DNA from: a bacterium | Lineage (GTDB): Bacteria; Thermosulfidibacterota; Thermosulfidibacteria; Thermosulfidibacterales; Thermosulfidibacteraceae | Assembly (NCBI GenBank): GCA_027022065.1 | Contig: JALVZS010000209.1 | Span: 1-6,324, forward strand | Direction: 5' to 3' | Length of the DNA stretch: 6,324 bases | Shown: piece by piece, positions 1,825 through 6,324 of the stretch | Position numbering within the stretch: the first letter of the stretch is position 1 | How the letters are laid out: every line of letters starts with the position of its first letter | Program-made: the position numbers and the translations under genes | The notes under the pieces: model-generated | Databases searched by the model: none | Told to the model about the DNA's origin: nothing | The model's input: the letters and a program-made list of their open reading frames with translations, nothing else

Positions 1825-3957
1825 TTACACCTTGAACTTGGAGACCTTCTCGTTGAGCTCGTTGACCCTCTCGTTGATGTCCATTATGGCCTTGACAGTT
1901 TCATTAACACCGTTGGCCACCTCTTCCATTGCTTGGCTAGTTTGAGCTACATTCTCAACTACCTCGTTTATGGCCTGCATCTGTTCTTCGGACATTTTTC
2001 TCACTTCTGCCATTCTCTCCTTAACGGCTCTGGCCTCCTCTGCCATGCTCTCAAGCATCTCTGAGGATTCAATGATCCTCTCTGCCTGTTTTTCTGCCTG
2101 GGATGCGTACTCGTTTATTGTTTGTGCAAAGGTGGCAACTATGTGACCTATTTCTTCCACCATCTTTTCTATCTCGCTTGTGGACTTCATGGTTTCCTCT
2201 GCGAGCTTCCTTATCTCATCCGCCACAACGGCAAAGCCCCTACCATGCTCTCCAGCCCTTGCCGCCTCAATCGCGGCGTTTAGAGCAAGCAGGTTAGTTT
2301 GATCCGCTATGTTTGTTATAACATCAACTATGCCGGTTATCTTGTTGGCAGCTTCCGTTACCTTATCGGCTTCCTCAGCTATCTTGCTAAGCTCCTTTAT
2401 GGCTACCTCTTTGTTCCATTGAGCTGTTTCTTTGAAGGTCGTAACTCCTTCCATAGCGGCCTTTTCTGATTTCTCAGCAAGTTCTGCCGATGCCTCTATG
2501 TGCTCCACAAGAGATCTCACTGATGCGGACAGTTCCTCCATGGCTCCAGCTACTCTGCTTAAGTTGTCCTTTGTATTCTGGGTTATCATATTTATTTCTT
2601 CTGTGCTTGCAGAGACCTGGGTGGTGGCGGATACCACTATTTCCGTGGTTTCTATAATGGAGGAGATGGTTTCCTTGGTGCTTTCAACAAGCTTACGGAT
2701 GTAACTAACGGTTTCTCCAAGCTCATCCATGGAGAGGACTTTTGGTGCTTCCCTTAAGTCTCCCTCAGCGTTTTTCTTAGCAGTAGTGTTAACTTCTTCA
2801 AGAGCTTTCTTTAAGTCATCTGCGATGAAATAAGCTGCTGCTACTATAATTATGATGAGCATAACAACCATTATTAAGTTTTTCTCTCCAAGCTCTTTTC
2901 TTAGGTATTTCAGATACTGCTCAGCCTCTTTATGGAGGGTGTCTATATAAACTCCACTTCCTATAATCCAATTCCACGGCTTGAAAAGCTTAACATAAGA
3001 AATCTTAGGTGAAGGAACTGTGCTTCCCAAATGAGGCCACCAGTAGGATACAAAGCCTTCTCCGTATTTCCTGCACTTTTCTATCATCTCCTGGAACAGG
3101 TATTTGCCCTTTTTGTCCTTAAGGTAGTAGAGATTTTTCCCTATAAGGCTCTTTTTTGGATGAACCAGCATTACACCATTCATGTCGTTAATCCACACAT
3201 AGTTCTTGCCGTTGTCGTACCTTATTGCTCCCACATCCTCCAGCGCTAGCTTCTTGGCTTCCTCTACGCTCATCTTACCTTCCTGTGCGAGCCTGTAGTA
3301 CTTCTCAACTATGTGGTAAGCCGTTTCAACTATCTTTTCTACGCTCTTCTCGCGTAATTTTAGCATTACTGTATATACCTGCTTTCCCGTGGATACATCC
3401 CCCATGCCGTAAATGGTCATACCTGTTGCAAGGGCAACGGCTATAAATGCAAAGATAAGTTTAGACTTGAGGGTTACAGAGTGCCCTACAAATCCGTATA
3501 GAGAGCCCACATCTTCCCAAACCTTTGAGGTAATCTTTATAATTACAGGATAGCCTAGGGTGAAGATGAGGAGTCCTCCGGATAATACAATAATACTAAT
3601 AGACACGCCTTCAGGTATGTTCCCCTGGCGGTTAAGCACCCATGTTGCTAGCCCCGATGATATAAAGGAGAATACTATGTGGGAGAAAAACAGTACCTTG
3701 GGATATATCTTCGCAAAGCTTTCTGCCTTTTCCCTGCTTTCCTCAACCCCGGAGGACATACTTCTTGTTAAGAAACAGGTTGCAACTGCGTAGAGAAACA
3801 TCCAGCCTGCGTTGTATGGATTGGCTATGGCTTTGAGGGCATTTTCAAGCGAGGTTATCCCTGAAAGCAAGATATAAAAGATCCATATTATAGGGCCTGC
3901 AACCGCTGCAAAGAGTATGTATAAAACCCACCATTTACACCAGTTCTTCTTTTCCAT
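1825..3957 (-). CDS. Methyl-accepting chemotaxis protein with single Cache sensor and extra N-terminal membrane module
   Basis: Chemoreceptor of 710 residues that would control a CheA/CheW array at the inner membrane. By eye it has six membrane helices: about 10-32, 49-64, 88-108, 118-140, 166-185 and 361-379. Basic loops place the N-terminus and the 141-165 loop in the cytoplasm. Residues 186-360 form the periplasmic sensor and fit the single Cache (sCache_2) pattern: [15 protein letters not shown] (253-267), GKYLFQEM (284-291), [19 protein letters not shown] (321-339). A HAMP-like segment with DELGE follows (380-427). The coiled-coil signalling domain has its conserved hairpin tip at 549-589 (core [20 protein letters not shown]). 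It ends in SKFKV with no CheR-tethering pentapeptide. The ATG at 3957 is the only start after an in-frame TGA, with AAGGAGGG upstream. It is divergent from the PII-lut operon. Ligand is unknown; sCache domains in some bacteria bind small carboxylates, so lactate or pyruvate is an inference from the neighbours. Confidence 0.95.
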
Positions 3958-4032: not shown

Positions 4033-4057
4033 TACAGTGCTTTTGGAGCTTGAGCAA
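4029..4057 (-). promoter_or_regulatory. Sigma-70-type promoter for the chemoreceptor gene
   Basis: On the minus strand the -35 box TTGCTC (complement of 4052-4057), a 17-base spacer, then a perfect -10 TATAAT (complement of 4029-4034). Transcription would start near 4022, giving a leader of about 64 bases. Its -35 overlaps the -35 of the divergent plus-strand promoter by four bases. Confidence 0.6.
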
Positions 4058-4078
4058 TTGATGCCGTTAAGGTAAAAT
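4050..4078 (+). promoter_or_regulatory. Sigma-70-type promoter for the PII-lut operon
   Basis: TTGAGC (4050-4055), a 17-base spacer, then TAAAAT (4073-4078). Transcription would start near 4085, leaving a leader of about 20 bases that contains the ribosome site. A second TAAAAT at 4084-4089 is an alternative -10 but has no convincing -35 at the right distance (TTGATG at 4058-4063 would need a 20-base spacer). Confidence 0.5.
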
Positions 4079-4104: not shown

Positions 4105-4449
4105 ATGAAGATGATTGTTGCTTATGTAAACCCGGAAAAGCTGTGGGAGCTTAAAAAGAGCCTGTTTGAGCTAGGGGTTCCAGGGATGAGCGTGGACAAC
4201 TTCATGGGCATAGGAAAGCCCATGAGACACTTCAAGGAGCTTATGGACAAGCACGGTGCTGTTCCCAAGTTCTTCCCCAAAGCCAGGGTGGAGATTGTTT
4301 GTGAGGACGCTCTTGTTGAGGAGGTTCTTTCCACCATAAGGAAGTGCTGTTGCACCGATCACCCTGGAGATGGTAAGGTTTTTGTGCTGCCCGTTGAGGA
4401 TGCTTTGAGGATCAGAACGGGAGAGAGAGGAGAGGAAGCTCTGAGGTGA
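4105..4449 (+). CDS. PII-like signalling protein (divergent GlnB/GlnK family)
   Basis: Small trimeric regulator family that reads ATP/ADP and often 2-oxoglutarate and controls partner proteins through a flexible T-loop. At 114 residues it has PII length and aligns with E. coli GlnB almost gap-free: G24-V25 with G27-M28, GIGK at 35-38, FFPKARVEIV at 56-65 where GlnB has FLPKVKIEIV, GDGKVFVLPVE at 88-98, and RIRTGERGEEAL at 102-113. The nucleotide-binding B- and C-loop residues (G88, G90, K91, R102, R104) are kept. Unusual points: the Gln that coordinates 2-oxoglutarate in GlnB (Q39) is Pro39, the uridylylated Tyr51 is absent, the T-loop is one residue longer and otherwise dissimilar, and a triple Cys (81-83) precedes the B-loop, with another at C66. 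It is the first gene of the operon; its TGA overlaps the GTG of lutC. Probably binds nucleotide with changed or lost 2-oxoglutarate sensing; its target is unknown, and the downstream Lut proteins are the nearest candidates. Confidence 0.85.
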   Translation: MKMIVAYVNPEKLWELKKSLFELGVPGMSVDNFMGIGKPMRHFKELMDKHGAVPKFFPKARVEIVCEDALVEEVLSTIRKCCCTDHPGDGKVFVLPVEDALRIRTGERGEEALR

Positions 4450-4901
4450 GCGTAAAAGAGGACTTCCTCAGGAAGTTCCAGGAGGCGGGAGGGGAAGTTG
4501 CCCCATCCCTTGAGAAGGCCCTTTTAGGCTTTAAAGATGCTATTTTCTGCGTGGACAAAAGGCTTAAGAGGCGTACTAAGAAGTTCGCCATAAGAGAGGT
4601 TCCTCCTGAGGAGGCGGAGGTTTCCATAACCAGGGTAGATGCTGCGGCTGCTGAAACGGGAAGCCTCATTTTCGGCTTTAAGGAGGGGGAGGGGCACAAA
4701 CTCATAAGCCTTCCAAAGGTGCATATTGCCGTTCTTTCAACGAGGAGGCTTTACAGAAGCCTTGATAAGGCCCTTTCCAAGGTGGATGGGGATTATATTT
4801 CTATAGTAACCGGTCCCAGCAAGACGGGGGATATTGAGCTCATCCATGTGGCAGGGGTGCACGGGCCTGAGAGGGTAATTCTTGTGCTGGAGGGAAGGTG
4901 A
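4446..4901 (+). CDS. lutC: LutC/LldG-type LUD domain protein
   Basis: Subunit of the LutABC (LldEFG) complex, which oxidises L-lactate to pyruvate in bacteria lacking or supplementing the flavin enzyme. The LUD-domain hallmarks are present in order: ITRVDAAAAETGSLIF (61-76, with ETGS at 70-73), LPKVHIAVL (89-97), TGPSKTGDIE (122-131) and GVHGP (137-141). At 151 residues it is clearly shorter than B. subtilis LutC or E. coli YkgG (about 230-240); the missing part is N-terminal to the core. The start is a GTG that shares GTGA with the stop of the PII-like gene; no in-frame ATG lies nearby. GAGG-type ribosome sites lie in 4428-4438. The substrate may be lactate or another 2-hydroxy acid; sequence alone does not decide. 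Confidence 0.88.
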   Translation: MSVKEDFLRKFQEAGGEVAPSLEKALLGFKDAIFCVDKRLKRRTKKFAIREVPPEEAEVSITRVDAAAAETGSLIFGFKEGEGHKLISLPKVHIAVLSTRRLYRSLDKALSKVDGDYISIVTGPSKTGDIELIHVAGVHGPERVILVLEGR

Positions 4902-6324
4902 GGGAGCTGAGGCGCTATCTTAACAATCCTAACATAAGGGAGGCCCTTAGAAGAGCCGCGTTAAGGTTTGCAGAGGGTAGGGTAAAGGCCCTTTCCGAGC
5001 TCGGGGACTTTGCCGAGGTAAGAAAAAAGACTAGGAAGGTTAGAGAAAGGGCTCTTGAAAGGGCGGATGAGATATGGGGCAGGGTGGCGGACCATCTCGT
5101 TTCCTTGGATGTGAAGATAGTTTTTGCCGAAACCGCTGAGGAGGCAAGGGAAGTTATATGGGACATTCTGAGTAAGCACGGCGTTTCTTTGTTGGTTAAG
5201 GGCAAGTCCATAACCAGCGAGGAGATACACCTCAATCCTTTTCTTGAGGAGAAGGGGATAGAGGTGGTGGAAACGGATCTCGGCGAAAGGATCCTTCAGC
5301 TTTTGGGAGAGAAGCCCTCTCATCTTATAGTTCCCGCCATACACAAAACCAAGGAAGAGGTTGCGGAGCTTTTCAGTAACTACTTTGGCAGAAAGGTCCC
5401 TCCCGATCCCTATGTGATAACCAAGGAGGTGAGGAGGGATTTAAGGGGCCGCTTTCTTTCTGCAGATGCGGGGCTTACGGGGATAAATGTGGTTTCTGAG
5501 GATCCTGTGGCCTTTTATCTCATGACCAACGAGGGGAACGGAAGGCTATGTGCAACCATGCCCGATGTTTATGTGACCCTCTGCGGGTATGAGAAGGTTG
5601 TTGAGAAAATGGAGGATGCCCTGTGGATACTGAGGGTGCTTCCCAAAAACTCTGTGGGCTTGAGCTTTTCCAGCTATGTAAGCGTGTTTAAGGGGCCGTT
5701 TAGGTGGAAGGCAAGGAGCTGGTATGTGGTTGTGCTGGACAACGGCAGGAAAAAAGCTTTGTCCGATTCCAAGCTCTATCATGTCTTAAGGTGTATCAGG
5801 TGTGGTGCCTGTATGAATGTCTGTCCCATATACAGGGTGCTTAGTGGGCAGGTCTTTAGCCATGTTTATATGGGAGGAATAGGCGTTGCCTGGACGGCAA
5901 TTACAGAGGGGGTGGAGAAGGCCTACCATGTGGCCTCTTTGTGCACCAGTTGTGGCACCTGCAACCAGGTCTGCCCCGTGGAGATACCCATAAGGGAGCT
6001 TGTTGAGGAGGTTAGGGCAAGGGCCGAAAGAAAAACCGTTATTGAGGAGAATGCGCCTAAAGTAATGCTGAATAGGAAGAAGCTCTTTGCCTCAATAGCA
6101 GAGGCGGGAAAGATAGCTGGTCTTTTCTCTAACTCGTCTCCCTTTACCTCCAGATTTAGAAGCGAGGAGGGGGATGTAAACCTCTATGTGGGCTGTGTTA
6201 TTGATCACCTTATGCCTGAGATAGCGGAGGATGCCTTTTCCCTGATGCAGGATGCTGGGGGCAGGGTGAGGGTTCTTGATGAGAGCTGTTGCGGTCTTCC
6301 CGCAAGGGTCTATGGAGATAAGGG
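4898..6324 (+). CDS. lutB: LutB-LutA (LldF-LldE) fusion iron-sulfur protein, right end cut
   Basis: Electron-carrying core of the L-lactate oxidation complex; I translated 475 codons by hand. Residues 1-290 are the LutB-type LUD region: PNIREALRRAALRFAEGR (11-28), ITSEEIHLN (105-113), GIEVVETDLGERI (120-132), HLIVPAIHK (142-150) and TNEGNGR (210-216). Two [4Fe-4S] ferredoxin-type motifs follow: Cys299, 302, 305, 309 (CIRCGACMNVCP) and Cys349, 352, 355, 359 (CTSCGTCNQVCP). Instead of ending, the frame runs through a linker (about 380-426) into a LutA/GlpC-type cysteine-rich domain: YVGC (C433) and ESCCGLPAR (C464, C465), where the window stops; the rest of the LutA part, perhaps 180-200 residues, lies beyond. 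In the LUD part the usual ADTGS/AETGT stretch is replaced by VSEDPVAFYL (199-208). Start is GTG, overlapping the lutC stop as GTGA, with GGAGG at 4889-4893. A LutB/LutA fusion next to lutC is also known from the Desulfovibrio lactate operon (LldEF). Confidence 0.9.
   Translation, partial: MRELRRYLNNPNIREALRRAALRFAEGRVKALSELGDFAEVRKKTRKVRERALERADEIWGRVADHLVSLDVKIVFAETAEEAREVIWDILSKHGVSLLVKGKSITSEEIHLNPFLEEKGIEVVETDLGERILQLLGEKPSHLIVPAIHKTKEEVAELFSNYFGRKVPPDPYVITKEVRRDLRGRFLSADAGLTGINVVSEDPVAFYLMTNEGNGRLCATMPDVYVTLCGYEKVVEKMEDALWILRVLPKNSVGLSFSSYVSVFKGPFRWKARSWYVVVLDNGRKKALSDSKLYHVLRCIRCGACMNVCPIYRVLSGQVFSHVYMGGIGVAWTAITEGVEKAYHVASLCTSCGTCNQVCPVEIPIRELVEEVRARAERKTVIEENAPKVMLNRKKLFASIAEAGKIAGLFSNSSPFTSRFRSEEGDVNLYVGCVIDHLMPEIAEDAFSLMQDAGGRVRVLDESCCGLPARVYGDK

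Follow-up and report, generated by a model that had tools for sequence, protein, structure and literature searches.

A gene for a PII-family regulator stands at the head of, and overlaps with, the genes for a LutC-like protein and a LutB-LutA fusion (LutBA), and this arrangement is conserved in the order, made up of uncultured bacteria, to which the source genome belongs. Our observations directly support the gene order, the overlap, its conservation, the subfamily to which the PII belongs, the residues that this PII has lost and the conservation of the T-loop in the LUD-linked set. We propose that a dedicated PII, probably responding to ATP and ADP only, docks on LutC or LutBA through an altered T-loop and gates lactate-type oxidation, a reading to which we give an even chance of being correct.

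The window, i.e., the whole stretch of 6,324 nucleotides analysed here, is an entire contig (C209) of a 1.57 Mb genome comprising 251 contigs. Three genes were identified on the forward strand: one for a PII-family regulator of the Pro39 (GIGKP) subfamily (positions 4105–4449; 114 amino acids; PF00543, E = 6.6e-21), one for a short LutC-like LUD protein (4446–4901; 151 amino acids; PF02589, E = 3.6e-20) and one for an LdhH-type LutB-LutA fusion, which is open at the contig end (4898–6324; 475 amino acids; PF02589, E = 7.9e-33; Fer4_8, E = 6.3e-16). As both the PII/lutC and lutC/lutBA junctions are 4-nt GTGA overlaps, the order and the overlaps of the ORFs confirm the original prediction of a PII gene leading, and coupled to, a lutC-lutBA module. 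The gene upstream of the PII gene is divergent, and the latter fits the position of the first gene in an operon. A possible sigma70-like promoter (TTGAGC-17-TAAAAT) was found 5' of the PII gene on the same strand (4050–4078), but it is a weak match, of which 0.8 are expected by chance. A chemoreceptor gene with Cache and MCP signal domains (1825–3957, reverse strand) is located between rplI-dnaB and the PII operon. The plasmid search returned no match other than those of less than 60% identity.

The order was sampled by nine genomes including that of the window, and eight of them, again including that of the window, carry this PII; the proteins of the seven relatives share 57–70% identity with the window PII. 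The PII gene is followed by lutC in all eight orthologous loci (in G003, LutC was read from a frame translation), the order PII-LutC-LutBA is kept in seven of the eight, and the PII gene overlaps lutC by 1–4 nt in seven of the eight. In the ninth genome (G007), we found lutBA and lutC cut by a contig end, beyond which a PII gene may lie. The unit is kept intact in changing surroundings: rplI-dnaB is divergent from it in most genomes, a different upstream context is found in G004, and the chemoreceptor gene intervenes in the window. The immediate divergent neighbour of the PII gene in G002 and others is rplI. The link between PII and LUD genes in this order is thus not due to chance, albeit the LUD-linked case is built on eight orthologues, all from one order. 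In G004, the PII gene and lutC stay together while lutBA is on a different contig, pointing to LutC as the likely partner of the PII.

Canonical PII paralogues and AmtB are located separately in the order, so the LUD-linked PII is an additional one. The sole other PII detected in the window genome (contig C27, L046:13183–13491; 102 amino acids; PF00543, E = 3.1e-17) lacks most of the T-loop, and its gene overlaps rpiB by 4 nt. A full-length canonical PII precedes rpiB in G007.

Adjacency of the genes could mean joint expression rather than contact between the products. Downstream of the unit lie genes for a YhaM-like OB-HD protein and/or a UbiB/ABC1-family protein, the latter in several relatives and the former in others, and members of the same PII subfamily stand beside unrelated genes in other phyla, as described below. 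The PII might therefore control a target other than the LUD proteins, such as a UbiB-type kinase or quinone step or the YhaM-like protein, with lutC-lutBA merely co-expressed. We regard this as unlikely, since no gene but lutC both occurs in eight of eight cases and overlaps that of the PII, whereas the YhaM and UbiB genes vary between families.

The identification of the first gene product as PII-like held well, as the PF00543 match spans the whole domain (75 bits against a gathering cut-off of 25). The nearest solved structure by sequence was 2eg1 (E = 3e-25), and the AlphaFold model (pLDDT 84.8) presented the PII fold, matching PII structures at E = 1e-11, with a helical T-loop modelled at lower confidence. 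The window PII resembles canonical GlnB/GlnK (PF00543) in length, fold and the nucleotide-site residues GDGK and RxRTGE. Nevertheless, it departs from GlnB/GlnK in that (i) Gln39 is replaced by Pro, with GIGKP in place of GFGRQ, (ii) the T-loop (residues 38–59 examined) lacks the Tyr that is modified by uridylylation or adenylylation, the aligned position 52 being Ala against Tyr in 94 of 94 canonical rows, and (iii) neither AmtB nor glnA adjoins the gene. The NCBIfam equivalog cut-offs for GlnB and GlnK were missed by a wide margin (70.9 against 202 bits and 68.1 against 181 bits, respectively). The residues of the ATP/ADP pocket (G35, G37, G88–K91, R102 and R104 in the window numbering) are invariant in the eight LUD-linked members. 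Across the four sets compared, R102, R104 and D/G/K at positions 89–91 are invariant, G88 is changed to Ser in half of the yggS-linked members, and the identity of the nucleotide-site loops between groups ranges from 0.74 to 0.94 (0.74–0.89 for the LUD-linked set against the others).

The principal contacts of 2-oxoglutarate are Gln39 and Lys58, and Lys58 mutants do not bind this ligand (PMC6908673). Gln39 is absent throughout the subfamily, being replaced by Pro, or by Ser in G003, and sensing of 2-oxoglutarate is consequently unlikely. The LUD-linked set and G350 keep Lys58 (Lys59 in the window), most yggS-linked members have Cys, Arg or Gly in its place, and the lplA-linked members Arg or Leu. 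Given that Lys58 is kept in the LUD-linked set, this PII may bind a weak or different acid ligand. The same Lys58, together with the PII fold, could be taken to mean that we are dealing with an ordinary PII, which still senses 2-oxoglutarate and conveys nitrogen status to carbon oxidation in the way that a canonical PII serves several targets. We find this improbable, as every subfamily member tested carries Pro39 (Ser in one), the T-loop has lost its Tyr and shows an identity of only 0.12 to canonical PII, the GlnB/GlnK scores are far too low, and the order possesses separate canonical PIIs. Among known structures, Archaeoglobus GlnK2 (3ncp/3ncq) shares the PII fold with the window PII at 43% identity in the structural match. 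Archaeoglobus GlnK2 reportedly does not bind 2-oxoglutarate, which makes it a lead at most.

The orthologue-profile scores were bimodal (at least 129 bits against at most 109 bits), and the upper group reaches three further phyla. Its signature is the replacement of GFGRQ by GIGKP: of the 43 subfamily rows of the PII tree, 42 have Pro39 and one, G003, has Ser, while no row outside has Pro39 and Gln predominates there at this position. Twelve canonical-type PIIs of myxobacteria carry Thr39 (GRTGGK) instead of Gln (L053, L064, L067, L074, L077, L078, L084, L087, L093, L101, L108 and L119). In this quick tree (142 rows, 112 columns), the 43 GIGK[P/S] rows form one side of a single branch with an SH-aLRT support of 92, and the trait requires one change against a mean of 37 upon shuffling. 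The original prediction also named a triple Cys alongside Pro39 as a feature of homologues to be sought; both Pro39 and Cys80–82 are present in the window PII, but the triplet is private to this sequence and one Cys alone recurs, so that it was rejected as a mark of the subfamily.

The neighbours of the subfamily differ between lineages. In the phylum of G013, which is probably Nitrospinota because the other PII region of G013 is closest to Nitrospinota records, 45 of 77 genomes hold a member, and yggS is directly 3' of the PII gene in all 30 loci inspected (28 short loci plus G013 and G300), with proC next where the contig allows (L152–L179 and L242–L251). In the phylum of G211 and G341, a member was found in 4 of 24 genomes, each time next to a lipoate-protein-ligase-like gene (L150, L151, L240 and L241). 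No LUD gene was found after the PII gene in G350, and one subfamily member outside the order stands alone. Thus, the neighbourhood of Pro39 homologues, in which the original prediction expected LUD genes to recur, bears out the LUD link inside the order, and shows yggS-proC or lplA in its place in other phyla. The prediction was to be refuted by homologues lying scattered and unlinked to LUD genes, and we partly see this outcome, since the subfamily outside the order is linked to non-LUD genes. The original explanation is plausible, but it applies to a single lineage within a broader branch of PII.

Within the LUD-, yggS- and lplA-linked sets, the identity of the T-loop is 0.67, 0.61 and 0.37, respectively; between the three sets it is 0.21–0.29, and to canonical PII 0.12–0.18. 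The T-loop of the LUD-linked set has an identity of 0.12–0.22 to the other sets. Docking of each set on its own distinct partner would predict such a pattern, but shared descent within the sets contributes to it as well. Shared descent might also explain the conserved neighbourhood without any regulatory tie, all eight cases being from one order in which rplI-dnaB is likewise a shared neighbour in most genomes, but this is as improbable as an ordinary PII, since the overlapping frames persist at 57–70% protein identity, the pair in G004 persists in another context, and two further lineages each hold subfamily members by one specific gene.

The association of PII with LUD genes does not extend across bacteria. 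A contig-wise comparison of 386 genomes gave no adjacent PII and lutB in other genomes among the matches listed, and a bacteria-wide PII-LUD link was rejected on these data. G145 and G282, which belong to one family, have a spacing of ~5 kb between PII and LutB, with a canonical PII and intervening genes. Of 79 other PII loci, for some of which the flanks are incomplete, one has a LUD-like match in the flank, ~5.5 kb off. The original claim of a PII dedicated to LutC and LutBA is well supported inside the order by the conserved and overlapping genes; as a general reading, it has to be corrected. In the literature searched, we found no paper joining PII, LutC and lactate.

That the enzyme oxidises lactate, as originally proposed, is an inference. 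The window LutBA carries the LUD domain, the 4Fe-4S dicluster and the start of CCG before it is cut by the contig end, and its complete relatives are 675–704 amino acids long; the LUD, 4Fe-4S dicluster and CCG architecture of LdhH, with a LutC partner, is kept. Curated cut-offs were missed: against the LdhH cut-off of 800, full-length relatives reached 511 and 589 bits and the contig-cut window protein 444 bits, and LutBA scored 353–374 bits against the LutB cut-off of 444.8. In the window LutC, the PF02589 match covers only positions 83–188 of the 189 in the profile, and alignment with relatives indicated that this LUD domain has a reduced or diverged N-terminal part. A LutC structure prediction from just two sequences had a pLDDT of 38.8, too low for any conclusion. 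Compared with the known LutABC and LdhH-LutC modules (PMC3924224), LUD in both proteins, the 4Fe-4S dicluster and CCG are shared, whereas the scores below the curated cut-offs, the shortened LutC and PII as the first gene set the present module apart.

Neither a lactate transporter nor an LldR-type regulator was found in the PII-linked operon. G005 and G006 possess a second LutC-LutBA copy that lacks a PII and adjoins a sodium:solute symporter (L212:572–6282 and L213:1693–7475), and in G005, where scanned, an LldR-like GntR regulator lies beside it; the symporter and the regulator thus accompany only the PII-less copies. These copies also indicate that PII is inessential to the enzyme. Because the second copies adjoin a symporter and, in G005, the symporter-side and PII-linked LutBA share 86% identity, the two types probably have the same or similar activity. 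A 2-hydroxyacid, for example lactate, is the likely substrate. We also considered the PII-linked LutB as a clade of its own, which was ruled out because the PII-linked sequences enclose the symporter-linked copy of G005 in the tree. The window genome (G000) has one lutBA. The same genome encodes a divergent LctP-family permease (contig C142, L237:1883–3463), which scored well under the NCBIfam cut-off and adjoins a glutamine-synthetase adenylyltransferase-like gene.

A precedent for a dedicated PII is GlnZ-NadE, in which PII is a dissociable subunit of NadE, a relationship first suggested by gene clustering (PMC7196632). Both there and here, the gene clustered with that of the PII encodes a metabolic enzyme not concerned with ammonium transport, but the enzyme here is a lactate-type oxidase, and the Azospirillum PII responds to 2-oxoglutarate (PMC7196632) while the window PII probably cannot. 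In cyanobacteria, PipX-PipY (YggS) places a PII-network gene beside yggS, often with proC nearby (PMC9605639), similar to the Pro39 PII beside yggS-proC in the probable Nitrospinota; PipX is not a PII, whereas in the latter the PII gene itself precedes yggS.

Under the dedicated-PII proposal, a PII trimer would be specialised to a single target. With the ATP/ADP pocket kept and Gln39 gone, the adenylate state (ATP versus ADP) would probably be the sole input. The altered T-loop would dock on the LutC or LutBA translated from the shared, overlapping transcript. Depending on energy charge, this docking would switch on or off both the oxidation of a 2-hydroxyacid, lactate or another, and the flow of electrons from it to quinone. 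It is attractive to speculate, more tentatively, that the entire subfamily gave up 2-oxoglutarate and became dedicated energy-charge subunits, of which the T-loop was rewired in each lineage for LutC/LutBA, for YggS-ProC (PLP homeostasis and proline) or for lipoate-protein ligase.

PII is the textbook sensor of nitrogen and carbon. The Pro39 branch appears to comprise dedicated regulators, which probably sense energy. A coherent branch of PII that lacks Gln39 and whose metabolic neighbour differs from one lineage to the next would illustrate how a sensor scaffold is re-aimed by changes in the T-loop, and the small pairs PII-LutC, PII-LplA and PII-YggS allow this re-aiming to be tested directly.
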